Origin: Actinomycetota bacterium
GTDB lineage: Bacteria > Actinomycetota > Actinomycetes > Streptosporangiales > Streptosporangiaceae
Direction of reading: 5' to 3'
NCBI GenBank assembly: GCA_003168295.1
Contig: PMST01000001.1
Span: 1 to 17,887, forward strand
DNA length: 17,887 nt
Part shown: piece by piece, positions 1 through 17,887 of the stretch
How the letters are laid out: each line of letters opens with the position of its first letter
How positions within the stretch are numbered: position 1 is the first letter of the stretch
Position numbers and translations under genes: made by a program
The notes under the pieces: generated by a model
Told to the model about the DNA's origin: nothing
Databases searched by the model: none
The model's input: the letters and a program-made list of their open reading frames with translations, nothing else

Positions 1-980
1 GCCCTGGGCCTCCCCGGTAAGCTCGAGTACATAGCCTGATACGTTGCGAGAATGTCCTGCGCAGAAAGGATGCTGTCGTAGATGGCGACCTTCCCGATGG
101 CGCCATCAAAGAACGAATCCAGGTCTCGAGTCCCTATCCGCAGCGGAGCATTCGATGCCCCGGGCTTGACATTAAACTGGCTCAGGCTAACCTGACGACC
201 TCGCATTTGCCCATTCTTGTATATTGAAATATACCCATCGGGCCATTCCGCGGACGATCGGCTGTCGATAACGAATGCTACCATAATCCAATCGCCGGGA
301 TGAACTACATCCTGAAAGTACGCTCCGGAGCCCTTACCGCCCGCCAGGTTGAACAGGTATGCTGATATTCGATTTGGCCTCGGCGGAACCTCTGAATTCG
401 AATAAGAGTACATGCGCATAGCATATTCTTGCTTGCCGACGGTTCCTTTCCCGAGAACATACACGTAGCCTGAGCCTTGAGTATGCGGAAACTGGAGAAC
501 GGCAGGCTTTATCCACGCCTCAACGGTGAGGCAGCCCGTGTCCGTTACCGACAGTGACCTAGATGAAGGAACCTGGACATATTGGCTCACGCCATCGAAG
601 GCGCTCGCCAGGTCCCCGTTCGGAAGAGTAGTGAGATCTGGCTTCCCACCGCTAGGTTCATAAATCCCGTTATTACCATTACCGGACAGGTCTGGTTCAA
701 TCCCAGACGATGCATTCCCGAGGGCTAGGTAAAGCACGGGGTGGAATGATAGAACCTGGCGATCGTATCGATCGGTCACCTGCGGGGGCGACGTGACCGA
801 CACTGGCTCGCGCTGATCAGTCACGGGTCCCGTGCTGCTTCCTGCCGAACTGCTCCCGTCGCGGGCGCACCCCAGCACCACGCCTACAAACATGACTATG
901 GCCCCGACCAGGGTAGCCGCACGCCAAGGCGTTCGCGCCGAGACGCCGACTAGTTTCCAGCTCACCTTAACCACGTTCAT
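1..980 (-). CDS. LamG-domain lipoprotein, 3' end outside window
   Basis: An open frame of 326 codons runs from an ATG at 980 off the left edge without a stop. The N-terminus has basic residues, then a hydrophobic stretch (about residues 21-37) ending in VVLGC, which looks like a lipobox with Cys38 as the lipidated residue. A Ser/Thr/Pro-rich linker follows to about residue 70. The rest resembles a LamG/concanavalin A-like lectin fold: AFDGVSQYVQVP (127-138), LTVEAWIKP (151-159), WIMVAFVID (231-239), and the closing FFDGAIGKVAIYDSILS (290-306). Such domains bind carbohydrate, so a surface-anchored glycan-binding protein is inferred. In-frame ATG 989 and GTG 992 are other possible starts; an in-frame TAA at 998-996 limits the choice. 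It lies about 75 nt downstream of the lyase/deacetylase gene and is probably in the same operon. Whether a catalytic domain follows beyond the edge cannot be seen. Confidence 0.8.
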   Translation of the reverse strand, partial: MNVVKVSWKLVGVSARTPWRAATLVGAIVMFVGVVLGCARDGSSSAGSSTGPVTDQREPVSVTSPPQVTDRYDRQVLSFHPVLYLALGNASSGIEPDLSGNGNNGIYEPSGGKPDLTTLPNGDLASAFDGVSQYVQVPSSRSLSVTDTGCLTVEAWIKPAVLQFPHTQGSGYVYVLGKGTVGKQEYAMRMYSYSNSEVPPRPNRISAYLFNLAGGKGSGAYFQDVVHPGDWIMVAFVIDSRSSAEWPDGYISIYKNGQMRGRQVSLSQFNVKPGASNAPLRIGTRDLDSFFDGAIGKVAIYDSILSAQDILATYQAMYSSLPGRPR

Positions 981-1063
981 CCCCACCATCACACATTACA
1001 AAAAGGGTATTCATGCTGGGCGCGAAGTCGGCTCCTCTCCTGGCCCGCCCACGTTCGGCGCGG

Positions 1064-4000
1064 TCAGCCGGTGATAGTTGCGGTGATCAGCGACTTCTCA
1101 CCGGCATTTACGTAGATATGGTTTTTGACGGGCACTGCGTTGCTTCGGTCGAGCTCGCTCAGCGTCATCACCCGGATGCCCGAGGCGCGGATGCCGTTGA
1201 TGACTTCCTCGAACTGGGCTAGCGGGAATCCGGGCAGGTCACTAGGCTCGGAATGGATACGATGAAACGTCAAGAGAAGCGTTGTATGATACTCTTCAGC
1301 AGATTTAACGGCGGCCAGAATCAGCGAGGGCGGAGTGTACCCGATGTCGCCGTCCTCTCCATCGCCGGGATACTGGATCACCAGGTTGTTCACATCTTTT
1401 GGATTACCGAACGGGTAGCTATCTGGGTTGTTAATGATGCCACGCCCGAACATATAATAGCGGCCGACGGCTTGCTCTAGGGCGTCGTTCATGTCGCCAT
1501 ACGGGTAAATAATCCAGTTGGGCGCGGAGTTCAGCCCGTTCGCCTCCAGCCAGGCGGCCTGCTGAAGAATATCGGAAGCATACCCGGTCGGGTCATTTCG
1601 GTCATAATACGCCTGTACCGCATCCACGTCGGACTGGGTCTGATTGACCATATCCCAGCCCCAGTTATTCTGCAGGGCGCGGAGCTGATAAAGATTCAGG
1701 TAGTACTGGGCTGGATAGTCAACGTATTTGCCGATGACCCCTATGTTGCCTTGCATCCCCAACTCATGCATGTAGGTCGCGGCTGGAAGTATCGACTGGT
1801 AACCGTCGTCGAAGATGATCACGACTTTGCCGGAAGTCTGGGCAGGTGTGAGTGTTAGCCCGCCGATACTGACCGTCGGGACGGGGCCGGGGCCAGCCTT
1901 CGCCTCGAGCGTAACCGCCATTGCGTCCACATCGGCCCAGTTGACTGCCGGGCCGTTGGCGAGCCAGCCGCCCGAGGCGCCGAACTGACCTCCCGGGCCA
2001 AGAAAGACATCTATCCAGTCGCCGGCTACGTCAGGGGTGTACGCATTCAGCAGGTCTGTCGTAGCCGACCGAGCCCGGCCGTCGCTGTACAGGGTCAGCC
2101 TCAGCACATCGACCCGCCGTAGTCCCGTCACCCGCAGCCGAAGCCGGGCGTCATGCTGCAGCAGATCCAGCCGGATGGCGTCGTTCACCATCGTGACAGG
2201 CTCCGTGCCGCTGGCAGTAAGGCTATCGACGACCGAGCCCTGCTGACCCCGCGAGGCAATGGTTCCGCCTCCTGATGCGGTCCAGTTATCCGGGGCCGTA
2301 GCCGCCGTCACCGCGGCTGTCGGCACGGTCGGCGGATTCGGATCGGTGGCCCAGGCTTTCGGTGCGACAGCTTGGCTGAGGCCCAGGGCGATGCTGAGCC
2401 GTCGGGTACCAAGGGTCACCGCGACCCCGCCCTTATCGACGCTAATGCTGAAGCCAGCCTGCTGCGGTTGGCCGATGGTCAACAGCGTCATGAACGTAGC
2501 CTGACGCCCTCTGATTGCATAGCCGATTTGGTAGCACGGCAACAACTGCCCGTACGAATCGGAACAGAGGCCAGCCGGATCCTGCCCTCTGCGATTGATC
2601 ACAACGCTCTCGGAAATCCCTTGAGGTTGCAGCTGCTGGATTGTCACCTCGCGACGCGGCGTGCCGCCGATTCCCGAAACTGTCAGGCCAGATCTTTGCA
2701 ACTGCGCAGCGGGGAAGAGATGGAACAGCTGCTGGTAGGTATGTACTGATGCTGAATCAAGCTGGTCGATAACCAGCACATGATCAGGGTCAAGCAGCAT
2801 CACCATCCGCCGGTGCTGCACTCCCGCGTACAACGAGCTTTCACCGGCCTGGTAGGTTATACCGTCTTTACTAACCAGCGGCCCGGCTTCACCGTTACCT
2901 TGAGCTTGCGATTTCCCATCGACGGTAACCGTGTTGTGCGACTCTGTGCCATGGAAGTAGTTGTGATAGGGGCCCGCCGCGTACGTGTACAGGCCAGGGT
3001 CCGTAAGAAGATCTCCGCCATCACCATACAGCGTAATTCCCATCGCATCCAGATCGCTATGCGCCGTCCGATAACGTCCGAGGTTGAAAGTTAGGTAGGT
3101 GCTGTCTGCATAAGCGGCGCCGCTCGGCCACCCTGACCGCATGACCGTCAACGAAGAAGCAGGGAAAAACTTGCTGTTAACCGGCGGCGCTGAACCCTTG
3201 GCTCCATGGGTCAGGACATAGAGAAAATTCGGATCCGAGTTGGCCATGCCGATATAGACACCATGATAGTTAATGGTCTCATCAAGAGATGCGCCCAGCA
3301 GGGGGACCTGCGAGTTGGGTTGCAGGATATAAGACGCGAAGTTGATCATCGAGGCGAGCTTTGACGACATCCCAGCCGGGAGCGGCTGCCGCTGGGCTAG
3401 CATATATTGATAAATATTCCAGTATTTCTCAAGCGCGTAAAAGTCGTAGTACGGCGCATTCTCGATTAGCTGACCATCTGCATCGATAAGACCCAACAAC
3501 TGCCATTCGAATCTGTCCATGGCAAGCTGCTTCCACTGCTGAGCGTTCGGCAGAGAGGGGAAGGCAACAGCAAGATTGTAAAGAGCGGCCGCTTCGTTCG
3601 TGCCATGGTTCTCCCCGGTCTGGTAATGATTCGGATCAGCCAAGAAGGCGCCGGTCTTTTCGAGTTCCTGCAGGATTGCTGTGCTCGCCGACTCGCTAAG
3701 CGCATGGGCCTGCCGCAACTTCCACCATGTATCGATAAGCGACATGCAGCGGAAAGCTACAGCATGGGGATCCTTCCATGCCCACGGGGATTTCGGTTCG
3801 GCCGCGATAAAGCTCATGTCGAGGTTTACTAGCCGCTTAGCATAAACCACGTCGCCAGTCGTTCGGAAAGCATAGAGAAGGTTTAGAGTCGGTCGCAGTG
3901 AATAAAATTCAAATCGCCAGTAATTCGCGTCATACGGGTTTTCAGACCAGGTGGGTGAAGCAGGCAACCGGACTGAAGCGTAACGCGGGACGTCCCAGAC

Positions 4001-4435
4001 ATTTTGCAAGAGGTAATTGGCCGCCTGGATGGTGCCCTGATCTGTACTGGGATAGATTACTTCCCGGCCCATGCCGACCAATGGGTATGCCTTGTATATC
4101 GAAGCGTACTGACCAGAAGCAAAAGGCTGAACACACACGTAGCCACCGGACACGTCGGACATCTTAAGTGCACTTGGGCAGCTGTTCAGGAACGGCAGGT
4201 TGCTTATTGCGCTAACCGTGTTGTCGGTAGCAACCGATACCGTCTGTGTTATCGTTGACAGCCTGAAAGCGTTGGGAGCTACGTAATTAGCGATTTTCAG
4301 AGAAAAGATTGCCAGCACCACAAAACTAATGCCCGCTTCAACTATGAAGTGACGAATAGTTCGTGGGCGCTTCTCTTTGCGATCTTTGGGCGGCGTCTTT
4401 ACGAGTCCGCCGAAGATCGTTATCCGCGGTACCAT
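1064..4435 (-). CDS. Membrane-anchored heparinase II/III-type lyase fused to polysaccharide deacetylase-like domain
   Basis: This protein has 1123 residues. One membrane segment (about 31-52) follows a basic N-terminus, so the bulk should be outside the cell. Residues about 130-400 look like the alpha-helical half of heparinase II/III or alginate-lyase folds: ENHGTNEAAALY at 275-286 carries the Asn-His pair (N276, H277), and NAPYYDFY at 326-333 holds candidate catalytic tyrosines. Residues about 420-690 look like the beta-sandwich half (AHSDLDAMG 458-466, HGTESHNTVTVDG 495-507). These lyases cleave uronate-containing glycans by beta-elimination. A beta-rich linker domain (about 720-865) may bind sugar. 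Residues about 868-1095 resemble a NodB deacetylase (FDDGYQS 875-881, YPYGD 977-981, TFHRI 1056-1060), but the usual His-x3-His metal motif reads NQTQSD at 931-936, so that activity is doubtful. AGGAAG lies 5 nt before the ATG. The start overlaps the end of the GT2 gene by 16 nt, suggesting translational coupling. Confidence 0.85.
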   Translation of the reverse strand: MVPRITIFGGLVKTPPKDRKEKRPRTIRHFIVEAGISFVVLAIFSLKIANYVAPNAFRLSTITQTVSVATDNTVSAISNLPFLNSCPSALKMSDVSGGYVCVQPFASGQYASIYKAYPLVGMGREVIYPSTDQGTIQAANYLLQNVWDVPRYASVRLPASPTWSENPYDANYWRFEFYSLRPTLNLLYAFRTTGDVVYAKRLVNLDMSFIAAEPKSPWAWKDPHAVAFRCMSLIDTWWKLRQAHALSESASTAILQELEKTGAFLADPNHYQTGENHGTNEAAALYNLAVAFPSLPNAQQWKQLAMDRFEWQLLGLIDADGQLIENAPYYDFYALEKYWNIYQYMLAQRQPLPAGMSSKLASMINFASYILQPNSQVPLLGASLDETINYHGVYIGMANSDPNFLYVLTHGAKGSAPPVNSKFFPASSLTVMRSGWPSGAAYADSTYLTFNLGRYRTAHSDLDAMGITLYGDGGDLLTDPGLYTYAAGPYHNYFHGTESHNTVTVDGKSQAQGNGEAGPLVSKDGITYQAGESSLYAGVQHRRMVMLLDPDHVLVIDQLDSASVHTYQQLFHLFPAAQLQRSGLTVSGIGGTPRREVTIQQLQPQGISESVVINRRGQDPAGLCSDSYGQLLPCYQIGYAIRGRQATFMTLLTIGQPQQAGFSISVDKGGVAVTLGTRRLSIALGLSQAVAPKAWATDPNPPTVPTAAVTAATAPDNWTASGGGTIASRGQQGSVVDSLTASGTEPVTMVNDAIRLDLLQHDARLRLRVTGLRRVDVLRLTLYSDGRARSATTDLLNAYTPDVAGDWIDVFLGPGGQFGASGGWLANGPAVNWADVDAMAVTLEAKAGPGPVPTVSIGGLTLTPAQTSGKVVIIFDDGYQSILPAATYMHELGMQGNIGVIGKYVDYPAQYYLNLYQLRALQNNWGWDMVNQTQSDVDAVQAYYDRNDPTGYASDILQQAAWLEANGLNSAPNWIIYPYGDMNDALEQAVGRYYMFGRGIINNPDSYPFGNPKDVNNLVIQYPGDGEDGDIGYTPPSLILAAVKSAEEYHTTLLLTFHRIHSEPSDLPGFPLAQFEEVINGIRASGIRVMTLSELDRSNAVPVKNHIYVNAGEKSLITATITG

Positions 4436-5817
4436 GTCATCTTCCTAATAGTCGCTACGGAATAGAAGATGAGCCAGGAGAACATAAGGGTCGACATCAG
4501 GCTCATCGCAGGCCTGTACAGCCATCGCCTAGAGCCAGGATTTTCGTAACGGAAAGCTAGTCCGAAAGATAGGCCGATGTAACCAATTCCGGCTAGATAT
4601 AGGACTCCAGATACAGGGTCGCCACGTAGCGGTAGATAGATCAGGTGGCGGGCCGCTACAAAAGGACCGAGGAAAACAAATATCACGTGTATGTAGTAGA
4701 ATAGTGCGGGCAAGAAGGGGCGGCGCCAGTAAAATCTGCCAGTGACAAAGATATTTCGGATAAAGCTTTTCTTCCACCGGATCTGCTGCTTGATCACGCC
4801 GCGAAAAGTGGCGGGCACGTTGGTCCAGGCACGCGTAGACTTGGAGTATACGACCTTCCAGTCTCGCAGCGGATACGTCGGTGTTGAGAAGGGAGAATCG
4901 GTGAACTTAGGTAGCACTCGCGGTCCTAGGAATGTACCGCCGAGCACGTAGGCGGTGAGCGTCCGATCGGTGGCGAACCGGAACTCCTGGCCGAGAAATT
5001 TGTCGGCCTGCCAGGCAGGCATGAAATTGTAGATTGCAGATCGCCGGAAGAGAGCCAGTGGCCCGGAGACACATGTTACCGCCCCGAAGACACTTTCAAA
5101 TGCCTTGCGGACCGAAAACTGACCTTCATACCAAGTGTCTTGCGCCTTAGTAAGAAAGTTAACGTTGCTATTCAATGCCCGGCAATGACCGCTTACCGCA
5201 CCGACGTCTGGATCGTTAACGAAGATCGGGGCAGCGCAGGCCAATGCGTCGTTTTTCCAGACCGTATCGCTATCTGCAAAAGCGATAATGGAACCTTTGG
5301 AAACCCATAGTCCGGCCGCCAGAGCTCCTTTTTTCCCGCGGTTGACGGGCAGCTCAGTAAGGCTAAAACCGTATCTCTGGCTTAGCTCTCGTAGTACGCC
5401 GACTGTGCCATCGGTGGACGCGTCGTCCACAACGATTATCTCTGTGTTCTCGTAGGTCTGACTGATCATTGAAATTATGCATTCCGTTACTAGTTCCTTC
5501 TCGTTGTGCACCGCTACAATGCAGCTAATAAGTGAATCTTTCATCTGAATATCTCCGGCGGCAATCCGCGCGCCAGCGACCGCGGCCGGGTCTCGGTAGA
5601 ACGCCAGAGATACGGTCATGACCACAAATACGACCGCGGTCACCAGTACGCCGTATGCAAAAAAGGCGTCATTAGAATCTGGATTCTTGAATTCGATTTT
5701 CACTGCGAGTAGAAGAGCGAGAGCGAGTACGGCCAGCAATGCAACACCACGCAGGCGTGTACCTAGCGGAAGGCTTGTGGTTCGATGACCATGAGGCAGT
5801 GCTTGTGATTTAGACAT
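4420..5817 (-). CDS. Hyaluronan/chitin-synthase-like processive GT2 glycosyltransferase
   Basis: An integral membrane GT2 synthase. It would polymerise a polysaccharide from UDP-sugars on the inner face and export it through its own membrane helices. Numbered from the upstream TTG at 5832 (470 residues), it has two N-terminal membrane segments (about 28-45 and 58-78). The cytosolic catalytic domain has VVDDAS (134-139), DSD (187-189), SGP (256-258) and ATDR (287-290, in the place of the usual EDR). QQIRWKKS (349-356) is the Q-x-x-R-W signature of processive synthases. Three or four C-terminal helices follow. I prefer the ATG at 5817 (465 residues), because GAGG lies 5 nt upstream; the TTG at 5832 overlaps the preceding dehydrogenase fragment. 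The set of motifs fits HasA/NodC/PgaC-type enzymes, and the sequence alone does not fix the product. The adjacent dehydrogenase remnant and uronate-lyase-like protein favour a uronate-containing polymer. All key motifs are intact. Confidence 0.88.
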   Translation of the reverse strand: MSKSQALPHGHRTTSLPLGTRLRGVALLAVLALALLLAVKIEFKNPDSNDAFFAYGVLVTAVVFVVMTVSLAFYRDPAAVAGARIAAGDIQMKDSLISCIVAVHNEKELVTECIISMISQTYENTEIIVVDDASTDGTVGVLRELSQRYGFSLTELPVNRGKKGALAAGLWVSKGSIIAFADSDTVWKNDALACAAPIFVNDPDVGAVSGHCRALNSNVNFLTKAQDTWYEGQFSVRKAFESVFGAVTCVSGPLALFRRSAIYNFMPAWQADKFLGQEFRFATDRTLTAYVLGGTFLGPRVLPKFTDSPFSTPTYPLRDWKVVYSKSTRAWTNVPATFRGVIKQQIRWKKSFIRNIFVTGRFYWRRPFLPALFYYIHVIFVFLGPFVAARHLIYLPLRGDPVSGVLYLAGIGYIGLSFGLAFRYENPGSRRWLYRPAMSLMSTLMFSWLIFYSVATIRKMTWYRG

Positions 5818-5828
5818 AAATGCCTCAG

Positions 5829-6104
5829 TCAAAAACGCTCTATGTGCGGGTCGACCATACAGCCGCGTGCGTCAAGGATCCGGCACCCGGCGCGCGAGAT
5901 CTGGTCGAGGTTGTATACCGTGACTTCGTGTTCCAGATCATTTGCGCGCCGAACCGGCCTCCCGTCCACGGACCATGCGGGTGCGTATGGATCGTGGTAT
6001 GCAAGCATCGCGCCGCGCGCCATCAGTCTGCGGGCGACGCGAGGGACGGGAGATTCGCGCATGTCGCCAATATCTCTCTTATAGGCCACGCCCAATTGAA
6101 CGCC
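5829..6104 (-). pseudogene. C-terminal remnant of a UDP-sugar (HexNAc-type) 6-dehydrogenase
   Basis: About 88 residues match the C-terminal UDP-binding domain of nucleotide-sugar dehydrogenases: LGVAYKRDIGDMRESP, then AYHDPYAP, and ILDARG near the end. The LGVAYK...RESP wording is closer to WecC/WbpA-type UDP-HexNAc dehydrogenases than to UDP-glucose dehydrogenase, judged from memory. The N-terminal Rossmann domain and the central helix are absent, and an in-frame TAA sits at 6107-6105 right before the homology starts. The stretch DLEHEVTVYNLDQI looks shortened by roughly a dozen residues compared with relatives. The remnant ends 11 nt before the ATG of the GT2 synthase on the same strand. 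This suggests that a dehydrogenase-synthase (HasB-HasA-like) operon existed and lost the 5' part of the dehydrogenase. A functional product is unlikely. Confidence 0.75.
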
Positions 6105-6823: not shown

Positions 6824-8536
6824 GTGTCTTTGTATCCTGCCGTGCTGTTTCCTGTCAGTCCAGCGGACGAGGCCGCCTGGTGGCAGCCGGGACCAGGCAG
6901 CGCCCGGATGGTCGCGATCCGCCTTGGGGACCTGCGGTCCCCGGCCCGGCATGGCAGCGGTAAAGATGGCCGGACGGCGCTGACGGCGGCGGGTGCGGGG
7001 CCGGTCCGCAGCGGGGACCTGGTGGTGTTCTGCAAGCCGGTCGCGGTGGCACCGGCGCTGGTGCGCCGGGACGGGCGGGTGCAGGCCGCCGGGCACCCGG
7101 CCGATCACGTCCGGCTGGGCGTCATCGAGCAGCAGCTGGATGAGATGACCGGCACGAAGGACACGATCGGCCAGGTCGCCGCGCAGGTCACGCCGCGCGG
7201 GGCGGTTAAGGGAACCGCGCGTCGGGCGATGAGCATCGCCGCCGCGGTGCGCGGGTCGCTGCTGATGACGCTGATGCCGGACGCCGATCACGCCGAGATC
7301 CTGGCGGCGCTGTTCGGTGACCTTGCCGCGGTGCCGTGGCAGGCGCCGTTCACCGTGCCGACCGGTACCGTGTTCTCTGCCTGGCGCAAAGCGGCCGGCC
7401 CCGAACCGCTGGCCGTCCTGCAGGACCTGGTGCTGGCCGCCTCGGCCGCCGGGCACGAGCAGCATGACTGGCGTGCGATCGAGATAGGTGATCTCAAGCC
7501 CGGCTCGGTTGACGGGACCGTGACCCGGATGCCGGACACCACGGCCAACCGTGCCCTGTTCGGCTCGGCGGCCGGCGACGACGTCAGCCCCTATCCGCAG
7601 CTGAGGGACCTGCTGGTCACCGATGCTTCTACCCGCGGCACGCTCGCGGTAGTGACCGGGCCGTCCGGCGGTGACAAGGCCGAAGCCGAGCAGCAGCTCC
7701 TGGACCGGGCGCTCATCCAGTACGGGCACGTGTTCACCAAGGACCGGATCTGGGTACTGGACCGTAACTTCCCCGGCGTCGCGCGGATCAAGAAGATGAC
7801 GACGGTCACCCGCCTCCTGATCCGGCTGCGCAGCAGCATCACGCTGCGGCGGGTCAGCGGGTTCTTTCCCGGCGGCTCCTGGCTGGCTGATGTCAGCGGC
7901 AGCGGGGAGACGATCCGGATGCGGATCACCGAGTACGACGTCGACGTCGACGGCCAGGACGTGCCGGAGACGTTCTGCCTGGCCACCGACCTGCTCGACT
8001 GGTCTGCCTACCCAGCCGCCGTGCTGGCTGCGGCGTATAAGTGGCGCTGGGACGGGTCGGAGACCGCGCTGCGTGAGGACAAGTCCGCCATCCGCGGCGC
8101 CGGGCCGTCGACCGGGCCGATCTTCCGCTCCGGCACCCCGGAGATGATCCGCGCCGAGCACGCCGCGTGGATCACCGCCTGCGAACTGGTCCGCGCCGTG
8201 ATCCGGGCAGCCGCCCGCCAGGCCGTCCCGGCCAGGAAAGGCCACCGGGCCGGGCAGCCCGTCCATCCCCGCGAGATCTCGTTCACCGCCGCCCGCCGCG
8301 CCGCTATCACCGCCGCCCGCGACGGCACCGCCACCGCCAGCCTCCCCGCTGCGGCCCGCTGCGACAGACGCGACGCCGTCCTGCACGAACTGGGCAGACG
8401 CTGGATAACGACCGGCCGTGACCGGCACCGCGACCACAAAACCAAAGCCGGGCAGGCGTTCCCCGCCGCCGGACGCGGCATCACCACCCGCAAGGCACCC
8501 GCCCGCATCACCATCTGCGGCCCCCTCGCCGCCTGA
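6824..8536 (+). CDS. IS4-family DDE transposase
   Basis: A 570-residue transposase of the IS4 (DDE_Tnp_1) type that cuts and joins the ends of its own element. The likely catalytic triad is D230 in SVDGTVTRMPD, D313 in WVLDRNFPG, and E413 in YKWRWDGSETALREDK. The last stretch is the family's Y-R-E-K signature, but it has four residues between R408 and E413 rather than the usual three. The N-terminal 180 residues form the helical DNA-binding part. The C-terminal tail (about 440-570) is rich in Arg and Ala. It starts at GTG 6824, with GGGAG six nt upstream. The frame is unbroken and all three catalytic positions are filled, so it is probably active. Similar transposases occur in many actinobacteria. 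Confidence 0.9.
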   Translation: MSLYPAVLFPVSPADEAAWWQPGPGSARMVAIRLGDLRSPARHGSGKDGRTALTAAGAGPVRSGDLVVFCKPVAVAPALVRRDGRVQAAGHPADHVRLGVIEQQLDEMTGTKDTIGQVAAQVTPRGAVKGTARRAMSIAAAVRGSLLMTLMPDADHAEILAALFGDLAAVPWQAPFTVPTGTVFSAWRKAAGPEPLAVLQDLVLAASAAGHEQHDWRAIEIGDLKPGSVDGTVTRMPDTTANRALFGSAAGDDVSPYPQLRDLLVTDASTRGTLAVVTGPSGGDKAEAEQQLLDRALIQYGHVFTKDRIWVLDRNFPGVARIKKMTTVTRLLIRLRSSITLRRVSGFFPGGSWLADVSGSGETIRMRITEYDVDVDGQDVPETFCLATDLLDWSAYPAAVLAAAYKWRWDGSETALREDKSAIRGAGPSTGPIFRSGTPEMIRAEHAAWITACELVRAVIRAAARQAVPARKGHRAGQPVHPREISFTAARRAAITAARDGTATASLPAAARCDRRDAVLHELGRRWITTGRDRHRDHKTKAGQAFPAAGRGITTRKAPARITICGPLAA

Positions 8537-8719: not shown

Positions 8720-8769
8720 CGTTTCGTTCCTGGTTGTCTTACGACCAGAACGGAAAGGAGCAGCCCGAT

Positions 8770-9799
8770 TCAAGGGTATGTGGCCAGGCCGGGTTCGGGG
8801 GCTGCGAACTGCTGCGGTACCTGTTCCAGGACCGGCTGGAGCCGATAGCTGCCCGTACTACCTGATTCGGTGGTTTGGTTAGGTGGGTCGCGAGACAGGA
8901 TCTCGTCGCGGATCGCGGCCCACTGAAGCGAGTGACGGATGCCTTCGGTGATGTCGTACTGGGGCTGCCAGCCAAGAAGGCGCTCCGCGCGGTCGATGCG
9001 CGTGTAGGCGCCAGCAACGTCCCCCGGTCGGCGGTCGGCGTCGAGCGCCTCGACCGGGCTCTGGGCGACGTGATTAAAGGCGTCGAGAAGTTCCCGGACG
9101 GTGGTGCCTCGGCCAGTCCCCAAGTTGATAACGGTCGTCGGCCCCGGCAGGCATCGAACCTATCCAGCGCGGCCACGTGCGCCGCGGCCAGATCCCAGAC
9201 ATGAATGTAATCTCTGATGCCCGACCCATCCCGCGTCGGATAGTCAGTCCCCGTGACCACGAACGGAACGCCTTCTTCATGCGCCTGGATCATCTTGCCC
9301 AGGGCATGGGTCGGCCGCGCGAGCTGCAGGCCAGTGCGCATCTTGGGATCGGCGCCGATCGGGTTGAAGTATCGCAGGGACAGCACCCGGATAGGCTCTG
9401 CCGCTGCGATATCCGCGAACATCGCCTCGCACATGGCCTTGGTGCGTCCGTACGGGCTCTGCGGATCGACGGGCGAGTCCTCATCCATGGTCAGGTCCTC
9501 GCTCACCTGGTAAATGGCGGCCGACGAACTGAAGATCAGCCGCCTGCAACCGTTGCGCAGCAAGTGACCGACGAAGTCCAGGCAATGGATCACCGCGCCG
9601 ATGTCAGGGTGCTCCGCGAAGATGCGATCGATCAGCTGCCCGTCCGCGATATCACCCTCGTAGAACTCCCGGCCCGCCGCCATCTCGCGTCTGCCACTGA
9701 CCAGACTGTCCAGGATTACCGAATTGATCCCGGAATCCGAGCAAACCGAGGCAATTGTGCTTCCGATGTAGCCCGCGCCCCGGCGATAAGAACCCGCAC
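8770..9799 (-). pseudogene. galE: UDP-glucose 4-epimerase, frameshifted and deleted
   Basis: An SDR-family UDP-glucose 4-epimerase homologue, which would interconvert UDP-glucose and UDP-galactose. The proper start is GTG 9799 (VRVLIAG...), with GAAAGG seven nt upstream. The Rossmann motif GAGYIGS continues in another frame, so one base is missing near 9776-9782. After AVIHC the sequence jumps to LDFVGHLLRNG, dropping about 24 residues that relatives have there, at about 9580. The middle is well kept: SSSAAIY, the catalytic SPYGRTK (YxxxK), LRYFNPIGADP and DGSGIRDYIHVWD. A second frameshift near 9146-9152 moves the C-terminal part (INLGTGRGTTVREL ... LLGWQPQYDITEGIRHSLQWAA) to a new frame, which runs about 35 residues past the normal end to a stop at 8770. 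Three separate lesions make it a pseudogene unless the sequence contains errors. Confidence 0.85.
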
Positions 9800-10199
9800 C
9801 GTCGTACCTTTCGGTTAAGGCCGCCTTTACTGACGCACGGAGCCTATTCAAGAGGTTATGGCATCTTCAAGCCAGGGGCCGATGAAAGTAACGATCGCCC
9901 GGTCGCAGTATCAGCGATGTCGGGCACAAATCGTACATTCGGGGCCTGAATGTTTACGAACAAGGAGGATTATTCAAAACTCCCGTCAATATGACCAAAC
10001 AGACCTGTGACCTGTAGTGGCGTAATGAGTGTCGCGCAAGTAAAGCGGGTGTTAAATAAAATTCAAAGACCATCTCTCGGTCATCGCAGGTGCTACTCTG
10101 ATCGTCGCCAACTGAGAAGCGGACCCCCGCTACTTCCCAGACGGAAGGTCCTGACTTTCCGAGGCATAAGCGGATAATTAGTAACGATTGAGAATTTTC
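9800..10199. other. Divergent intergenic region between galE remnant and GT2 remnant
   Basis: About 400 bases separate two outward-facing damaged genes. It is more AT-rich than the GC-rich genes nearby and probably held both promoters. An AAGGAGG at 9962-9968 looks like a strong ribosome site, but no usable start codon follows at normal distance: the nearest ATG is at 9991, and the only ORF crossing the site is very short. I see no gene I can defend here. Confidence 0.45.
10151..10178 (+). promoter_or_regulatory. Candidate sigma-70-type promoter
   Basis: CTGACT (10151-10156) and GATAAT (10173-10178) are separated by 16 bp and lie 22 nt before the ATG at 10200. They match four and five of the six consensus positions. 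This is a pattern match only, with no experimental support. Confidence 0.3.
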
Positions 10200-10592
10200 A
10201 TGGGGGATAATGTGGGCCTGGACGCATACGACGCGGACTTCCAGGCATCTGCAGCTAACGGTGAAGTCTTCTTGTCCATAATTATGCCGACATACAACGA
10301 AGGTCCTACGATACGGCGCGCCGTGTGTCAAGTGCTCTCCACAAGCTATCCCTGCCGCATTGAGCTGATCGTCGTTGACGACGAAAGCTCGGATGAAACC
10401 GTCGAGCAACTTGACGGACTCTCCTGTGACCGGCCAAAAGTCTGCCGCAACTCTCGGAACACGGGAAGGGCACTGCCCTCCCAACTGACATGGGCAGATC
10501 CCGGTGGTGCTGCCCGACCAGAGAAAGCCCGATACGGGGACGATCTTCGCATCGTGTTGATAACGCGCAGTAATTTACACTTTCTTCACTAA
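10200..10592 (+). pseudogene. Remnant of a DPM1-like GT2 glycosyltransferase
   Basis: The first 75 residues or so are a clear GT2 N-terminus: LSIIMPTYNEGPTIRRAV, then IELIVVDDESSDETVEQL with the nucleotide-binding aspartates. After CRNSRNTGRA similarity is lost in this frame. A second frame (10457-10477) reads EHGKGTA, the expected GKG-x-A motif, and further on the first frame again gives DDLRIVL, a plausible remnant of the segment after the DxD motif. The gene therefore looks broken by small indels from about 10450 on. The frame stops at 10592, less than half the length of intact relatives. The ATG at 10200 seems the best start, though a TTG lies in frame at 10188. Intact relatives transfer sugar from GDP-mannose or UDP-glucose to polyprenyl phosphate. 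Confidence 0.65.
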
Positions 10593-10615
10593 AAAATGGG
10601 GGGGTAGTTAACACC

Positions 10616-11047
10616 GTGGTGAACGGGGGGGTTCACTCTGCGCCTGAGCCTGAACAATCGGAGGCGTCAGAGACCGGCCGCGACAAGAGTCGCGCCACTG
10701 TCATTGCACAGGACCGCAGTCCGACCAACATTGTTGATGTGCCTTGGCCACGGGTGTCCGTAGTCATTCCTGCGATGAACGAGGCACGCAACCTCCCGCA
10801 TGTTTTTGCGCTGATACCGCACACAGTTTACGAGGTGATCTTGGTAGACGGTCGCTCAGTAGACAACACCGTGGCAGTGGCCCGGGAACTGTGGCCAGAC
10901 GTACAGGTTGTGATGCAAAACTGGACTGGCAAAGGAAACGCGCTGGCTTGCGGTTTCGCGGCGGCGACCGGCGACATCATCGCCATGATCGACGCGGAGG
11001 GCTCCGATGATCCCGGAGAGATCCCGGCATTCGTCAAACATTGCTAA
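10616..11047 (+). pseudogene. Truncated GT2 glycosyltransferase, N-terminal half
   Basis: A 143-residue product with a variable N-terminus of about 45 residues. The GT2 nucleotide-binding half follows: VSVVIPAMNEARNLPHVF, EVILVDGRSVDNTV, WTGKGNALACGFAAATGDII, then MIDAEGSDDPGEIPAFV. It stops right after this, where relatives of about 300 residues continue with the acceptor half and membrane helices. The DxD motif reads DAE instead of DAD, so a metal-binding aspartate is replaced as well. The start is taken as GTG 10616; a run of seven Gs lies upstream but is far from ideal spacing. I did not find a continuation in other frames after 11047. It is probably inactive. Confidence 0.7.
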
Positions 11048-11331: not shown

Positions 11332-13179
11332 ATGGGGGATCGTGGCGTAAGTCATTATGACGGGGCCGCGTCCGTACGTGGTGCGCCGGCCGGGCCGGAC
11401 TCGCCTTCGCGGGCCGGTCGGGCTAGCTCTCCGCCGTGGGAGCGGTCCAGTGCGCCGACGCTGCTCGACACGCCGGTGTACGTGCCGTTCGATGATGTGA
11501 CCGTCCCGCTGCCGGCCCCGCCGAAAAGGGCGGGCAGGGCGGGAAAGGCACAACAGCCGACGAGAGACACCGGGCGGCACTGGTTGCCCCGCCGCAGCCC
11601 CTGGTCCTTCCTCGACGGCGTTCCGTGGCCGCTTGTCATCATCCTTGCCGCCCAGGCGGCGATGTCGCTCCGGCTGATCTGGACCAACACGGCGTTCCTG
11701 GACGAGGCCACCTACCTGTGGGCCGGGCACGTGGAGTGGGCGCACTGGCTGCACGGAACGTCCGAGCCGGCTTATGCGACCTACTTCTCCGGCGCGCCCG
11801 TCATCTACCCGCCGCTGGCCGCCATTGCCGCGCATTTCGGCGGGCTGGCCGGGGCCAGGCTGCTGTCCCTGGCCTTCATGCTCGGGGCGACCAGCCTGCT
11901 GTGGGGGATGACCAGGCGGCTGTTCGGCCAGTGGGCCGCCTTCGCCGCGGCGGCGCTGTTCGCCGCTCTCGGGCCGACCCAGTTCATCGGCGCCTTCGCG
12001 ACCTACGACGCGATGTCGCTCTTCTTCATGGCGGCCGCCGCCTGGTGCGTAGTCGCCGCGCGGGACCAAGAGGATTCCTCCCAGCTGCTGATCGCCGGGG
12101 CGGCGTTGCTCACCCTGGCCAACGCCACGAAGTACGCCAGCATGCTGTTCGACCCGACCATCGTGGCCCTGAGCGGCCTGACCGCGGTCGTGAACCACGG
12201 AACCGCGAGCACGGTGGGGCGCGGCCGACTCAAGATCGCGGTGGGGCGGGCCGGACTGGTCGGCGGCGTCACGGTGGCCCTGAACGCGGGGCTGCTCGCG
12301 CTGGGCGGTTCCTGGTATCTCGCCGGGCTTATGTCGACCACGATCTCGCGATCGTCCAGTAATACCCCGGCCAGCGCGATCCTTATCGAGGCGGCCCAAT
12401 GGATCGGCCTGGCCGGCATCCCCGCGGCCCTCGCGGCCGTGCTCGCCCTGTCCCGCCGCCACCGAATCGAGGCTGGCATCGTCGCCCTGCTGGCCGTATC
12501 GGCGGCGCTCGTGCCGCTTAACCAGGCCCGCATCCACACCTTGACGTCGCTGTCCAAGCACGTCGACTTCGGGGTCTGGTTCGCGGCCGCGGCTGCGGGT
12601 TACCTCATCGCTCAGCTGGCGCGGGCCGGCCGGCGCCGGTGGCCGGCTGCCGCCGGCGCCCTGGCGGTCGCGGGGGCCGCGCTTGTCCCCGCGGCGGTCG
12701 TCGGCAGCTCGCAGGCCTCGGCCTTTTACCAGGAGTGGCCGAACTCGACCGTGGTCTCGGACCAGCTCGCGGCGCTCACGCGGGAATACCCGGGCCGTTA
12801 CCTGACCGAGGATTACGAAGTCCCCGCGTACTACCTGAAGGATCAGGTGCCCTGGCAGGACTGGTACGACACCTGGTACTTCGCCTGGCGTCCCCCCGGC
12901 GGCAAGCGAACCCTCCTCAACCTGGCCGCCTACAAGGCGGCCATCGCGCGCCACTACTTCCGGCTGATCGTCCTCGACTTCGGTGACACGGCCCATACGG
13001 ACAGCGCGGTCACCGCTGATCTCAGGAAAGCCGGCGGCTATCACCTGATCGCCGAACTGCCCTACTGGGACCGGTTCGGCGTGGGCCAGTTCACCGTGTG
13101 GTTGTACCGGCCGGCGGCGGCCACCACCTCAGTCCGCCTTGCGAACAGCAACCGGAGGCACCGTGAGCGTCCGCACTAA
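11332..13179 (+). CDS. GT-C membrane glycosyltransferase (GT39/PMT-like)
   Basis: A 615-residue polytopic membrane protein. A Pro/Arg-rich cytosolic tail of about 95 residues precedes the first helix (about 98-116). The first outer loop has TAFLDEATYLWAGH, with D124-E125 in the place where GT-C enzymes carry their catalytic acid, and PVIYPPLAAI further on. About nine more hydrophobic segments reach to about residue 455, followed by a soluble domain of about 150 residues (EWPNSTVVSDQLAAL ... YWDRFGVGQFTVWLYRP). GT-C enzymes use polyprenyl-phosphate sugars as donors on the outer side of the membrane, so this one may glycosylate a polymer or protein outside. The ATG at 11332 has GAAAGG eight nt upstream. 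Its end overlaps the next gene, which marks it as first of a three-gene operon. The donor sugar is unknown; the DPM1-like enzyme at 16123 is a candidate supplier. Confidence 0.82.
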   Translation: MGDRGVSHYDGAASVRGAPAGPDSPSRAGRASSPPWERSSAPTLLDTPVYVPFDDVTVPLPAPPKRAGRAGKAQQPTRDTGRHWLPRRSPWSFLDGVPWPLVIILAAQAAMSLRLIWTNTAFLDEATYLWAGHVEWAHWLHGTSEPAYATYFSGAPVIYPPLAAIAAHFGGLAGARLLSLAFMLGATSLLWGMTRRLFGQWAAFAAAALFAALGPTQFIGAFATYDAMSLFFMAAAAWCVVAARDQEDSSQLLIAGAALLTLANATKYASMLFDPTIVALSGLTAVVNHGTASTVGRGRLKIAVGRAGLVGGVTVALNAGLLALGGSWYLAGLMSTTISRSSSNTPASAILIEAAQWIGLAGIPAALAAVLALSRRHRIEAGIVALLAVSAALVPLNQARIHTLTSLSKHVDFGVWFAAAAAGYLIAQLARAGRRRWPAAAGALAVAGAALVPAAVVGSSQASAFYQEWPNSTVVSDQLAALTREYPGRYLTEDYEVPAYYLKDQVPWQDWYDTWYFAWRPPGGKRTLLNLAAYKAAIARHYFRLIVLDFGDTAHTDSAVTADLRKAGGYHLIAELPYWDRFGVGQFTVWLYRPAAATTSVRLANSNRRHRERPH

Positions 13180-14758
13180 ACCGGTCGGCGCGGCCCTCCC
13201 CGCGCTGGCGGCCGAACGGTCCGCGCAGAAACACCGCCAGAAGCTGCCCGTCCCGCCCTCGGATGCCGAGAAGGCGATGTACGCGGACCGGAACCTGGCG
13301 CTGATCAACCGGGCTTCGCTCGCGAGTTTCGGCGCCCTGCTGATCAGCCAGGCCAGATTCATCATGCTCAGCCCGCTTCTGCTCGTGCTCACCCCACTGG
13401 TCGCGTTCACACTGGCGTACTACGTGATCTCGCTGTTCGTGAACATCGACGCCGGGGGCTTCGACCTGACGGCGCATCGGCGGCTAGTTCAGGACTGGAG
13501 GCCGCATGAGTATCCCGCCCTCGACATTTTCCTGCCCATTTGCGGTGAGCCGATCGAGGTCCTGCGCAACACCTGGGTCCACGTGGCCCGGTTGTTGCGC
13601 GCTTATCCCGGCGTGGGCACCGCCTACGTGCTCGACGACGCCGACAGCGCGCAGGCGCGGGAGCTGGCCGAGACCCTCGGCCTGACCTACCTGGTCCGGC
13701 CGGACCGGGGCTGGATGAAGAAGGCGGGGAACCTGCGCTACGGGTTCAGCCAGTCATCGGGTGAGTTCATCCTCATCCTCGACGCTGACTTCGCGCCCCG
13801 CACCGACCTGCCCGCCGAGATGCTCCCCTATTTGAGCGCCGACCCGACCCTGGGCATCATCCAGTCGCCGCAGTACTTCAGGACCCGGGGGCGCATGTCC
13901 TGGATCGAGCGTGGGGCTGGTGCCGTCCAGGAGCTCTTCTACCGGCTGGTGCAGCCATCGCGGGACGTACACGACGGTGCGATCTGCGTGGGCACCTGCG
14001 CGATCTACCGGCGGACGGCCCTGGCGGCGCATGGCGGCGTGTCGCTCGTCGACCACTCGGAAGACGTGTATACCGGCTTCGACCTGCGCCGGGCCGGATG
14101 GGGACTGCGCTATATCCCCATCCTGCTGGCCACCGGGCTGTGCCCGCCCGACCCGGACTCGTTTCTTACCCAGCAGTACCGGTGGTGCGCCGGATCGATG
14201 TCGCTGCTCGTCTCGCGGACATTCTGGTCTACACGCATGCGCCTGCGGACCCGCTGCTGCTACCTGTCCGGGTTCTGCTACTACGTGCACACAGCGCTGT
14301 TCACGTTCGCCACGCCGATCATCCCCCTGGTGATGCTGATCTTCCTGCCCAGCGGCGTCCAGTTCATCAACTACCTGCTCATCCTGCCGTCCTTCATCTA
14401 CACCGCGGCCGTGTTCCCGGCCTGGCACCACTCCCGGTTCGGCCCTTCGGCGGTGATGGCCAAGCTGCTGTACGGCTGGGCGCACACGTTCGCGATATGG
14501 GATCAGCTGCGCGGGCGCCCCGTGGGCTGGCAGCCGACCGGCGGCTCCGCGCGCAAGTCCAGGACCCGGCGGGTCTGGACCGGGATCGCGCTGTGGAACG
14601 GCGGCACGAGCGCGGCCTGGGTGCTGCTGGCCCTGTGGCGCACCGTGAACGACAATCCGAGCTTCATCGTCCTGCTCGCCATCGGGCTGATGAACAGTGT
14701 CGTGACGGTCATGGCGCTGCTTTCCCGCCGTAATTACGCGATGCTGGAAGGAGCTTGA
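13163..14758 (+). CDS. Cellulose-synthase-like GT2 glycosyltransferase
   Basis: A 531-residue membrane GT2 synthase of the BcsA/CslA type. It has an N-terminal helical pair (about 60-95), then a catalytic domain with all key motifs: YVLDDADS (aspartates at about 158-161), ILDADFAP (DAD at about 207-209), HSEDVYTG (about 298-305) and TQQYRWCAGS (QxxRW at about 337-341). Four or more helices follow. It would build a beta-linked polymer from a UDP- or GDP-sugar and export it. No PilZ domain is visible after the helices, so c-di-GMP control by that route is not indicated. Start GTG 13163 is preferred because GGAGG lies four nt upstream; an in-frame codon at 13139 lies deeper in the previous gene. 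It overlaps that gene by 17 nt and is followed after 1 nt by the hydrolase gene, so the three are co-translated. Confidence 0.88.
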   Translation: MSVRTKPVGAALPALAAERSAQKHRQKLPVPPSDAEKAMYADRNLALINRASLASFGALLISQARFIMLSPLLLVLTPLVAFTLAYYVISLFVNIDAGGFDLTAHRRLVQDWRPHEYPALDIFLPICGEPIEVLRNTWVHVARLLRAYPGVGTAYVLDDADSAQARELAETLGLTYLVRPDRGWMKKAGNLRYGFSQSSGEFILILDADFAPRTDLPAEMLPYLSADPTLGIIQSPQYFRTRGRMSWIERGAGAVQELFYRLVQPSRDVHDGAICVGTCAIYRRTALAAHGGVSLVDHSEDVYTGFDLRRAGWGLRYIPILLATGLCPPDPDSFLTQQYRWCAGSMSLLVSRTFWSTRMRLRTRCCYLSGFCYYVHTALFTFATPIIPLVMLIFLPSGVQFINYLLILPSFIYTAAVFPAWHHSRFGPSAVMAKLLYGWAHTFAIWDQLRGRPVGWQPTGGSARKSRTRRVWTGIALWNGGTSAAWVLLALWRTVNDNPSFIVLLAIGLMNSVVTVMALLSRRNYAMLEGA

Positions 14759-14759
14759 C

Positions 14760-15680
14760 ATGATGAGCCTGCTCCGCCGGCTCGGCACGGTCGTAGTCGT
14801 CGCGGCCTCGGTCGTCGCCGTCGTAGCGTTCGGCCTGCACGAGGAGGCGGCCGGATCGGTCAAGGCCCTCCCGGCCACGCCGCACGGTTACCTGGGGGTC
14901 TACGTCCCGGGCATGCCGGCCTCCGACGCCGCGCTGACCACCTTCGGTTCCCGGACCGGTACCAGCCCGAACGTGGCGGTCTACTACAGCGGATGGCTGG
15001 AGCCGTTCCAGACCGGCTTCGCCGCGCAATTGTCGGCACGCGGAGCGGTGCCGCTGGTGCAGATCGACCCGCAAGGGGTCAGCCTGGCTGCGATCGCCCG
15101 GGGCACGTACGACAGCTACCTCGTGTCCTTCGCACAGGCCGTCCGTAATTCCGGCCATCCGGTGATCATCAGCTTCGGCCACGAGATGAACGGCGACTGG
15201 TACTCGTGGGCCAGCGGGAAAACCTCACCGGCCGACTTCGTGGCGGCCTGGCGGCACATCGTCAATGTATTCCGCTCCTGGGGGGCATCCAACGTGACCT
15301 GGCTGTGGACCGTCAACTCGCTGGCCGGGGGTCGGGGCGCGGCCGCCCCGCCGAAGCCCTGGTGGCCGGGCGCGGCCTACGTCGACTGGGTTGGGATAGA
15401 CGGCTACTACTACTATGCGGGCGAGAGCTTCAGGACAGTGTTCGGCTCCACGATCTCGGTTATCCGCCATTTCACCGACGATCCCGTTTTCATTCCAGAG
15501 ACCGGTATCGCCCCGGCCGCGGGCAAGGCGGCCATCATCCCGCAGGTATTCGCAGGAGCCAGGTCCGACGGGGTGCTCGGGGTCGTTTATTTCGACGCTG
15601 GAGGAAGCATGAACTGGAGCCTGGACGGCGATGCGGCCGCGCTCGCCGCTTTCGGTAAGGCCGCACGCGGCTTCGGCTGA
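14760..15680 (+). CDS. Secreted GH26-like glycoside hydrolase
   Basis: A 306-residue protein with an N-terminal signal or anchor sequence (basic RR at 6-7, hydrophobic 9-25). The rest looks like a GH26-type TIM barrel: IISFGHEMNGDWYSW carries the expected acid/base Glu142, and PVFIPETGIAP the expected nucleophile Glu247. WLWTVNS and WVGIDGYYYY are further barrel strands typical of the group. GH26 enzymes mostly cut beta-mannans and related beta-glycans. Following a synthase at 1 nt, the enzyme likely trims or releases the polymer, as BcsZ does for cellulose. The ATG at 14760 has GGAG six nt upstream; a second ATG is directly next. Both catalytic residues are present, so it is probably active. 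The substrate cannot be told from the sequence. Confidence 0.82.
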   Translation: MMSLLRRLGTVVVVAASVVAVVAFGLHEEAAGSVKALPATPHGYLGVYVPGMPASDAALTTFGSRTGTSPNVAVYYSGWLEPFQTGFAAQLSARGAVPLVQIDPQGVSLAAIARGTYDSYLVSFAQAVRNSGHPVIISFGHEMNGDWYSWASGKTSPADFVAAWRHIVNVFRSWGASNVTWLWTVNSLAGGRGAAAPPKPWWPGAAYVDWVGIDGYYYYAGESFRTVFGSTISVIRHFTDDPVFIPETGIAPAAGKAAIIPQVFAGARSDGVLGVVYFDAGGSMNWSLDGDAAALAAFGKAARGFG

Positions 15681-15755: not shown

Positions 15756-16004
15756 ATGCCCCATTTTTTGCGGCTGACCGTGCTCGGCGCGGGCTACCAG
15801 GGTGTCATCCATGCCGCCTGCGTGGCGAGCCTCGGGTTCGAGGTTTTCACCCTAGACACCGACGCCGCCAAGAGCAACCGTCTCAAGGCCGGGCAGATCG
15901 TCATGCATCAGCCGGGGCTCCAGGAACTCCTCGATGGCCGCCTCCGCAACGGGCGGCTCAGGTTCACGACCTCCTACCAGGAGGTCGCGGAATTCGATGA
16001 CTAG
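15756..16004 (+). pseudogene. N-terminal fragment of UDP-glucose 6-dehydrogenase
   Basis: These 82 residues are the beginning of a UDP-glucose/GDP-mannose dehydrogenase. The NAD-binding VLGAGYQG (GxGxxG) is followed by GFEVFTLDTD with the ribose-binding acid, QPGLQELLDGRLRNGRLRFTTSY, and then a stop just past the second beta-alpha unit. Full-length enzymes have about 430 residues, so the catalytic cysteine and UDP-binding domain are gone. The start has GGGGGAG about seven nt upstream and looks genuine. I found no continuation in the next 118 bases. The sequence style (HAACVASLG, FTTSY) is that of actinobacterial Ugd enzymes and differs from the HexNAc-type C-terminal remnant at 5829-6104. It lies after the synthase operon and may once have supplied UDP-glucuronate. 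Confidence 0.75.
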
Positions 16005-17527: not shown

Positions 17528-17571
17528 CCGGACACGTCGGTACCGATCGCGCGGATCGGGTGTAGTTGACG

Positions 17572-17887
17572 ATGCGGGGTAAGCTGCTCACCGAGCGGAT
17601 GGTGGCCATCGATGAGGAAACCCTCGAGATCATCGACCGGATCGTCGCCAACCGATCGGCGGGGCGGTCGCTGCGCCACCCGCGCACCGGCAAGCTGGCC
17701 GACTTCCTGCTCACCCACCAGGGCCGCCGCGTCTCGGCGGACACGCTGCGCGAGGAGCTGCAACGACCTGCCGCCGAGGCGGGCCTGGACGGCGTGGTGC
17801 CCCACCAGCTCAGGCACATTGTTCCCGCTACCGGTTACGAAGGAGGCGTGCCGCTGCCCTACATCCGCGACATCCTCGAGCACATCG
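17572..17887 (+). pseudogene. 5'-truncated tyrosine recombinase, 3' end outside window
   Basis: An open frame from ATG 17572 to the window end shows the C-terminal catalytic part of a phage-type integrase. GKLLTERMVAIDEETLEII matches the strand pair before the catalytic core, FLLTHQGRRVSADTLREEL follows, and VVPHQLRHIVPATGYEGGVP contains the HxxRH box. PYIRDILEHI occupies the place of the LGH box, with H kept. The N-terminal core-binding domain and the first catalytic arginine are missing; an in-frame TAG at 17563-17565 precedes the fragment. The box after HQLRH is unusual (IVPATGYEGG, where relatives have a TxATxxxxxG pattern). The nucleophilic tyrosine would lie beyond the edge. It is probably a remnant of an integrative element together with the neighbouring DUF5372-like gene. 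Confidence 0.65.

Follow-up and report, generated by a model that had tools for sequence, protein, structure and literature searches.

Gene layout and conservation of the cassette

The DNA analyzed here, referred to as the window, is a stretch of 17,887 nt from contig PMST01000001.1 of an Actinomycetota bacterium of the Streptosporangiaceae (assembly GCA_003168295.1). Its minus strand carries a cassette of four genes, namely, in 5' to 3' order, the remnant of a nucleotide-sugar dehydrogenase, a glycosyltransferase family 2 (GT2) synthase resembling hyaluronan synthases (HAS) and NodC, a lyase fused to a carbohydrate esterase family 4 (CE4) domain, and a LamG lipoprotein (Table 1). An initial annotation had placed these four genes on one strand, and all of them were confirmed. 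The synthase may start with TTG at 5832, giving 470 amino acids (aa), or with ATG at 5817, giving 465 aa, and the dehydrogenase remnant ends 11 nt short of this ATG.

Table 1. Features of the cassette, with their positions in the window
Feature	Position	Strand	Evidence
LamG (Laminin_G_3/concanavalin A-like) lipoprotein	3..992	-	PF13385, E 6.9e-17; 3' end beyond window edge
Membrane-anchored lyase similar to polysaccharide lyase family 12 (PL12) + beta-sandwich + CE4/NodB-like domain, 1,123 aa	1064..4435	-	Pfam, fold, triad
HAS/NodC-like processive GT2 synthase	4420..5832	-	PF00535, E 5.8e-27
Overlap of synthase 3' end and lyase 5' end (MTWYRG-stop/MVPRI)	4420..4435	-	16 nt, exact
C-terminal remnant of nucleotide-sugar 6-dehydrogenase, 91 aa	about 5829..6104	-	PF03720, E 2.5e-12

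The initial annotation had set beforehand, as one test of its proposal, a conserved pairing of the synthase with Hepar_II_III plus Polysacc_deac_1 proteins, and such a pairing was found. In a protein search, the fusion had 134 relatives and the synthase 1,213, and 120 of each were listed. Of the 120 listed fusion relatives, 26 are on contigs that match, by exact length, those of the 120 listed synthase relatives; 2,000 controls with shifted lengths averaged 0.6 such matches and never exceeded 4. The pairing exceeds chance, and the figure of 26 is probably an undercount because just 120 of the 1,213 synthases were listed. Scanning GTDB representative contigs revealed 12 loci, namely, 10 of the family and two general lyases (L011 and L012) without a GT2 of the cassette kind. 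The family loci belong to Ryanbacteria, Magasanikbacteria, Yanofskybacteria, Berkelbacteria, Moraniibacteriota, the Parcubacteria group, Paceibacterota, Moranbacteria, one bacterium, and one Actinomycetota. A GT2 gene directly precedes the fusion in all nine family loci with upstream DNA (L001, L002, L004, L005, L006, L007, L008, L010, and L071, the last from the actinobacterial genome G001); this count leaves out L003 and L009, which start at a contig edge, as well as L011, L012, and genome G475. The cassette had been presented as an actinobacterial operon but is not confined to Actinomycetota, as it also occurs in bacteria of the Candidate Phyla Radiation (CPR).

The overlap of synthase and lyase genes, from which their joint production had been proposed, is equally exact, at 16 nt, in three CPR loci (L001, L002, and L010), where the synthase ends in M-x-W-x-R-(G/E)-stop, and this recurrence supports the proposed coupling. 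Variants are a possible GTG start at 16 nt in L007, an overlap of 19 nt in L008, and one of 8 nt with GTG in L071; in L004, L005, and L006, both genes are 1-5 nt apart without overlap.

The cassette is rare. Matches at 1e-60 were found in 3 of 379 genomes sampled from the phylum of the CPR genome G003, all already among the loci of the GTDB scan, and in 4 of 399 genomes from the class of G001 (G001, G475, G532, and G552). In G475, a partial lyase match comes after a GT2, and G532 and G552 contain a lyase but no GT2 of this kind within the 14-15 kb read. Close actinobacterial genomes were not found among 61 genomes, 14 of which matched at E 0.001 (best besides G001, 5e-16), nor in a further set of 396, of which 53 matched at E 0.001 and only G001 was below 1e-60 (next, 7e-55). 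The nearest named fusion relatives are protein P0097 of a Gaiellaceae metagenome-assembled genome (45%) and L009 of an Actinomycetota metagenome-assembled genome (43%), in line with an actinobacterial host, and relatives of 87-94% identity exist for the window proteins. The relatives P0003 and P0011, with identities of 89% and 68%, are on contigs of 284 and 919 kb. The viral contigs searched gave no relative, and 14 plasmid records contain distant lyases or deacetylases, none of which spans 80% of the fusion. The cassette is thus a genuine conserved module, and no description of it was found in the literature searched, with subscription papers mostly out of reach.

The synthase, the lyase/deacetylase fusion, and the LamG protein

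The synthase combines a membrane GT2 fold of HAS-type architecture with the DxD (D187/D189) and QxxRW (QQIRW, 349-353) motifs, which are invariant or nearly so in the aligned relatives. Its predicted structure has hyaluronan synthases as nearest neighbors; no NodC or PgaC structure is among the 50 VIA-align matches listed, which leaves room for families outside that list. However, residues 287-290 read ATDR instead of the GDDR of class I HAS, a motif called invariant for HAS in the accessible part of PMC11750622. The tree shows 11 further members of the clade, which likewise have ATDR, and A287, T288, D289, and R290 are invariant across 40 aligned rows. In this tree, to which long-branch warnings apply, the synthase is in a clade of its own (98/100) and outside PgaC, and a CvHAS fragment, NodC, and a Lactococcus HasA-like enzyme form another clade (99/98). 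The synthase obtains the same score, approximately 117 bits, from the NodC and the PgaC model, as compared to cut-offs of 550 and 422. In our mapping, the CvHAS donor-site residues K177, R341, W342, D201, D203, D302, R303, and R348 all have equivalents in the synthase, but those of K177 and R341 are present in NodC and PgaC as well and are therefore no marker of uronate use. Of the HasA-like enzyme initially annotated, the HAS-like predicted fold has remained, but neither the motif nor the tree places it with HAS, and clustering with GlcNAc-only synthases, the second refutation named in the initial annotation, may still apply. In three CPR loci (L005, L006, and L007), the neighbor of a similar lyase/CE4 fusion is another type of GT2, with GDDR and outside the clade of the window synthase.

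The fusion consists of a transmembrane helix (residues 26-52), a lyase domain (approximately 108-690), a beta-sandwich, and a CE4/NodB-like domain (approximately 868-1123). Pfam matches are Hepar_II_III_C (E 6.4e-25), Hepar_II_III_N (E 8.5e-17), and Polysacc_deac_1 (E 6.7e-5), the last just above its cut-off (23.3 versus 23.1 bits) and missing from the precomputed Pfam annotation of the identical protein P0001. The lyase domain has the heparinase III fold, and the PL12 heparinase III structures 4mmh, 5jmd, and 4fnv are its nearest lyase structures. It differs from them in its low identity (18-19%), its membrane anchor, its fusion to a beta-sandwich and a CE4 domain, and its being encoded with a synthase. 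Its residues N276/Y330/H459, counted by hand on the alignment, correspond to the catalytic Asn/Tyr/His triad of heparinase III, termed N240/Y294/H424 in the accessible part of PMC12088678. The full triad is kept in 95 of the 120 listed relatives and incomplete in 25, in one of them through a gap. The assignment to the heparinase II/III type was thus borne out, and the predicted function of this domain is the eliminative cleavage of a uronate polymer. Its C-terminal partner belongs to CE4 by fold and by Pfam membership. CE4 enzymes possess an Asp-His-His metal site, and DDHH is found in 72 of 115 aligned relatives. In the window copy, Q932 and D936 replace the histidines of the relatives, and because these are gone, the domain probably lacks deacetylation activity. 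Judged from the aligned relatives, the CE4 histidines appear to have disappeared on several occasions, whereas the triad of the fused lyase mostly persists.

The LamG protein has a hydrophobic leader (residues 22-46) and, read by eye, a lipobox-like ...VVLGC. According to Pfam annotation, 15 of the 120 listed relatives of the lyase/CE4 protein carry a LamG domain within the same chain, which supports the link of LamG to the pathway; in G001, LamG is a separate downstream open reading frame (ORF), L072. A hydrophobic segment precedes the LamG part in the seven fusions examined (P0048 and six others) and is perhaps a retained leader. The N-terminal helix together with this segment would leave LamG on the cytoplasmic side, unless cleavage occurs at this point. 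In the CPR loci, no match to the LamG protein of the window was found, and the seven ORFs located after the fusion there (275-342 aa) all stay below Pfam cut-offs. PADLOC gave no match for lyase or synthase, and PHROGs, queried with LamG and lyase, gave weak matches for the former and none for the latter. The HFTV1 turret head protein (8qpg) differs in being a viral capsid protein, with a 412-residue chain that has no lyase domain.

Dehydrogenases and the remainder of the window

The dehydrogenase remnant shows internal gaps as compared to full-length enzymes. It is nearest to dehydrogenases of Streptomyces anulatus (44%) and Nonomuraea (40%), both of which score higher on UDP-N-acetylhexosamine (UDP-HexNAc) models. 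Its weak PDB matches, however, are UDP-glucose dehydrogenases only (E 0.001-0.006), which weighs against the UDP-HexNAc type, and 91 gapped residues are too short a stretch to assign a substrate.

For the relatives, PF03721 was sought in ten genomes. A full-length PF03721 dehydrogenase is directly upstream of the synthase in four of the nine loci (L001, L004, L006, and L008). L002 has one 5 kb upstream, the sole case of the UDP-glucose type, and none is beside the synthase in L005, L007, L071, or L010, the last with only about 325 bases upstream. In genomes G002, G003, and G009, the PF03721 match is the only one. For all four adjacent enzymes, NCBIfam UDP-N-acetylmannosamine/glucosamine models outrank the UDP-glucose ones (for L001, 317, 257, and 231 versus 196, 159, and 69 bits). 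No dehydrogenase reaches an equivalog cut-off except two E. coli controls, and the controls Ugd and WecC score as expected. The structures nearest to the L001 and L004 enzymes, the two searched, are 4r16, Cap5O, and 3g79, two of which are named N-acetylhexosaminuronate dehydrogenases, while Cap5O is not named by substrate; these are followed by CalS8, which we take to be a UDP-glucose dehydrogenase, and then by UDP-glucose dehydrogenases. In the tree, the adjacent enzymes are split at 94/94 from E. coli Ugd and the Lactococcus HasB-like enzyme, with that of L002 on the Ugd side. By these scores, the adjacent dehydrogenases look UDP-HexNAc-type rather than HasB-like, and a UDP-glucose dehydrogenase directly beside the synthase, as in has operons, was not found in the relatives. 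The class is no proof of substrate. The UDP-uronate dehydrogenase initially assigned to the pathway thus reappears as a recurrent upstream gene, but glucuronic acid (GlcA) is not required as its product.

A PF02350 2-epimerase, which N-acetylmannosaminuronic acid would require, was not found in G002, G003, and G009, which may be incomplete, and is present once each in G001, G004, and G007 (three of six genomes). G007 is also one of the four genomes with an adjacent dehydrogenase. In G001, the epimerase adjoins a WecC-like dehydrogenase that is not the one of the cassette, because it is on another contig. N-acetylmannosaminuronic acid as the uronate of the cassette is thus only disfavored. A GlmU-like nucleotidyltransferase ORF (best scores, below cut-offs) immediately follows the fusion in L002, is separated from it by one gene in L001, and would fit a supply of UDP-N-acetylglucosamine (UDP-GlcNAc).

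The remainder of the window contains further sugar-related genes. Between the cassette and a set of broken sugar genes, an ORF at 6824-8536 (+) matches IS4-family transposases with 50 bits, below the cut-off of 115 bits. It is flanked by a 17-nt inverted pair (6618-6634/8695-8711, 94%) that might be its ends. The stretch 8739-11047 contains a GalE-like epimerase, apparently split between reading frames, along with two GT2 fragments that are truncated. They are followed at 11332-15680 (+) by a run of three genes, for a PMT_2 protein, a cellulose-synthase-like GT2, and a GH26-like protein, that may form a second polysaccharide locus. The N-terminal fragment of a second nucleotide-sugar dehydrogenase, nearer the UDP-glucose type, is at 15756-16004 (+) ahead of another GT2 gene, and a phage-integrase-family ORF at 17566-17886 (+) reaches the window edge. 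The idea that both dehydrogenase pieces are halves of one inverted gene was rejected: 15756-16004 (+) corresponds to TIGR03026 positions 2-74 only and 5829-6095 (-) to positions 319-376 only, and the pieces resemble different dehydrogenase types. The G+C content at third codon positions is 0.57-0.66 for the genes between 3 and 5817, 0.74-0.75 in the epimerase and the GT2 at 16123, and 0.85-0.89 in the transposase, PMT, CelA-like, GH26, and integrase ORFs to the right of the cassette; the lower values of the cassette genes fit a foreign or differently evolving block. A promoter and terminator scan revealed nothing in excess of shuffled controls.

The predicted polymer of the cassette

We consider it probable that the conserved cassette serves synthase-dependent exopolysaccharide production and has its own lyase, and that the window contains a degraded copy of it. 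Gene order, conservation, predicted folds, catalytic residues, and the dehydrogenase class by family scores are the observations on which this reading builds. The polymer and its sugars, the membrane orientation, export, trimming, and binding are read from the families involved. In the intact relatives, the nucleotide-sugar dehydrogenase would provide a UDP-uronate, which the processive GT2 would polymerize, alone or with a second UDP-sugar, while passing the chain across the membrane. The lyase-CE4 protein, tethered on the outer face, would then cut the chain by beta-elimination and, where the metal site is intact, deacetylate it, and in Actinomycetota the LamG lipoprotein would bind the product. 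Since its adjacent dehydrogenase is a remnant, and with the CE4 site also lost, the window copy would make polymer only with UDP-uronate supplied from elsewhere. Alginate biosynthesis likewise pairs a uronan synthase with an encoded lyase that acts on the polymer produced, but it uses a Gram-negative export machinery and GDP-mannuronate.

The same two losses, together with the second dehydrogenase fragment, the broken epimerase, the GT2 fragments, and the transposase nearby, may also indicate that the whole module in the window is a decaying pseudo-operon without present function. This is possible but on balance unlikely, as the synthase, lyase, and LamG frames are open, the synthase motifs and the lyase triad are intact, and relatives of 87-94% identity exist.

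As to the product of the conserved cassette, a GlcA polymer is not established. The uronate need not be GlcA, because the four adjacent dehydrogenases of the relatives score as UDP-HexNAc-type, and the probability of an N-acetylhexosaminuronate polymer is no lower than that of a GlcA polymer. In its full form, which we propose only tentatively and consider less likely than not, this reading is that CPR bacteria and Actinomycetota share an undescribed cassette for an N-acetylhexosaminuronic acid polymer, chitouronate-like or an alternating chain of GlcNAc and its uronic acid, whose synthases form a new GT2 clade and whose PL12-like lyase/deacetylase is a dedicated, membrane-bound trimming enzyme. 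The equivalog cut-offs that were not reached and the UDP-glucose-type PDB matches of the remnant slightly lower this proposal.

These matches would rather suit a hyaluronan- or heparosan-like polymer of GlcA and GlcNAc made by a true HAS-type enzyme, which is also suggested by the structural neighbors of the synthase, its equivalents of the CvHAS donor-site residues, the proximity of the lyase to heparinase III, and L002 with its distant UDP-glucose-type dehydrogenase and GlmU-like ORF. The cassette indeed shares with the class I HAS operon (hasAB; the Lactococcus pair L084, HasA/HasB-like by our naming) a dehydrogenase directly before a membrane GT2, the overall fold, DxD, and QxxRW. It differs in its own GT2 clade, apart from CvHAS and the Lactococcus HasA-like enzyme in the tree with its long-branch warnings, in ATDR instead of GDDR (PMC11750622, accessible part), in its UDP-HexNAc-type dehydrogenase, and in the lyase/CE4 fusion within the operon. 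With K177 and R341 equivalents shared by NodC and PgaC, a HAS-type product appears doubtful.

Rather improbable is a neutral GlcNAc polymer, in which case the lyase domain would be retained for binding or attacking polymers of other organisms. The equal NodC and PgaC scores, far under the cut-offs, a CE4 domain that suits GlcNAc, the 25 listed relatives without a full triad, and the second GT2 type in L005-L007 are consistent with it, but the dehydrogenase directly upstream in four of nine loci and the intact triad in most listed relatives argue against it. Streptomyces MatAB, which makes poly-N-acetylglucosamine and had been named as a close parallel, resembles the cassette in that a single actinobacterial locus provides both GT2 and CE4 activity. 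This parallel was not sustained: in the accessible part of PMC5972031, MatB joins a GT2 to a CE4 domain and is most similar to PgaC, MatA lacks any known domain, and neither a lyase nor a dehydrogenase is mentioned, whereas the GT2 of the cassette is a separate gene outside PgaC. That the Hepar_II_III domain is a polymer-level C5 epimerase instead of a trimming lyase, as in human dermatan sulfate epimerase 1 of the same fold, is improbable.

The initial annotation was therefore right on the module and too specific on its product. To our knowledge, only a small number of bacterial pathways to glycosaminoglycan-like polymers has been described. A compact cassette with its own synthase clade and a built-in lyase would indicate which kind of surface polymer is made by the poorly understood CPR cells, in three reduced genomes of which the dehydrogenase of the cassette is the only family member found, and it would provide a new synthase/lyase pair for size-controlled amino-uronans.

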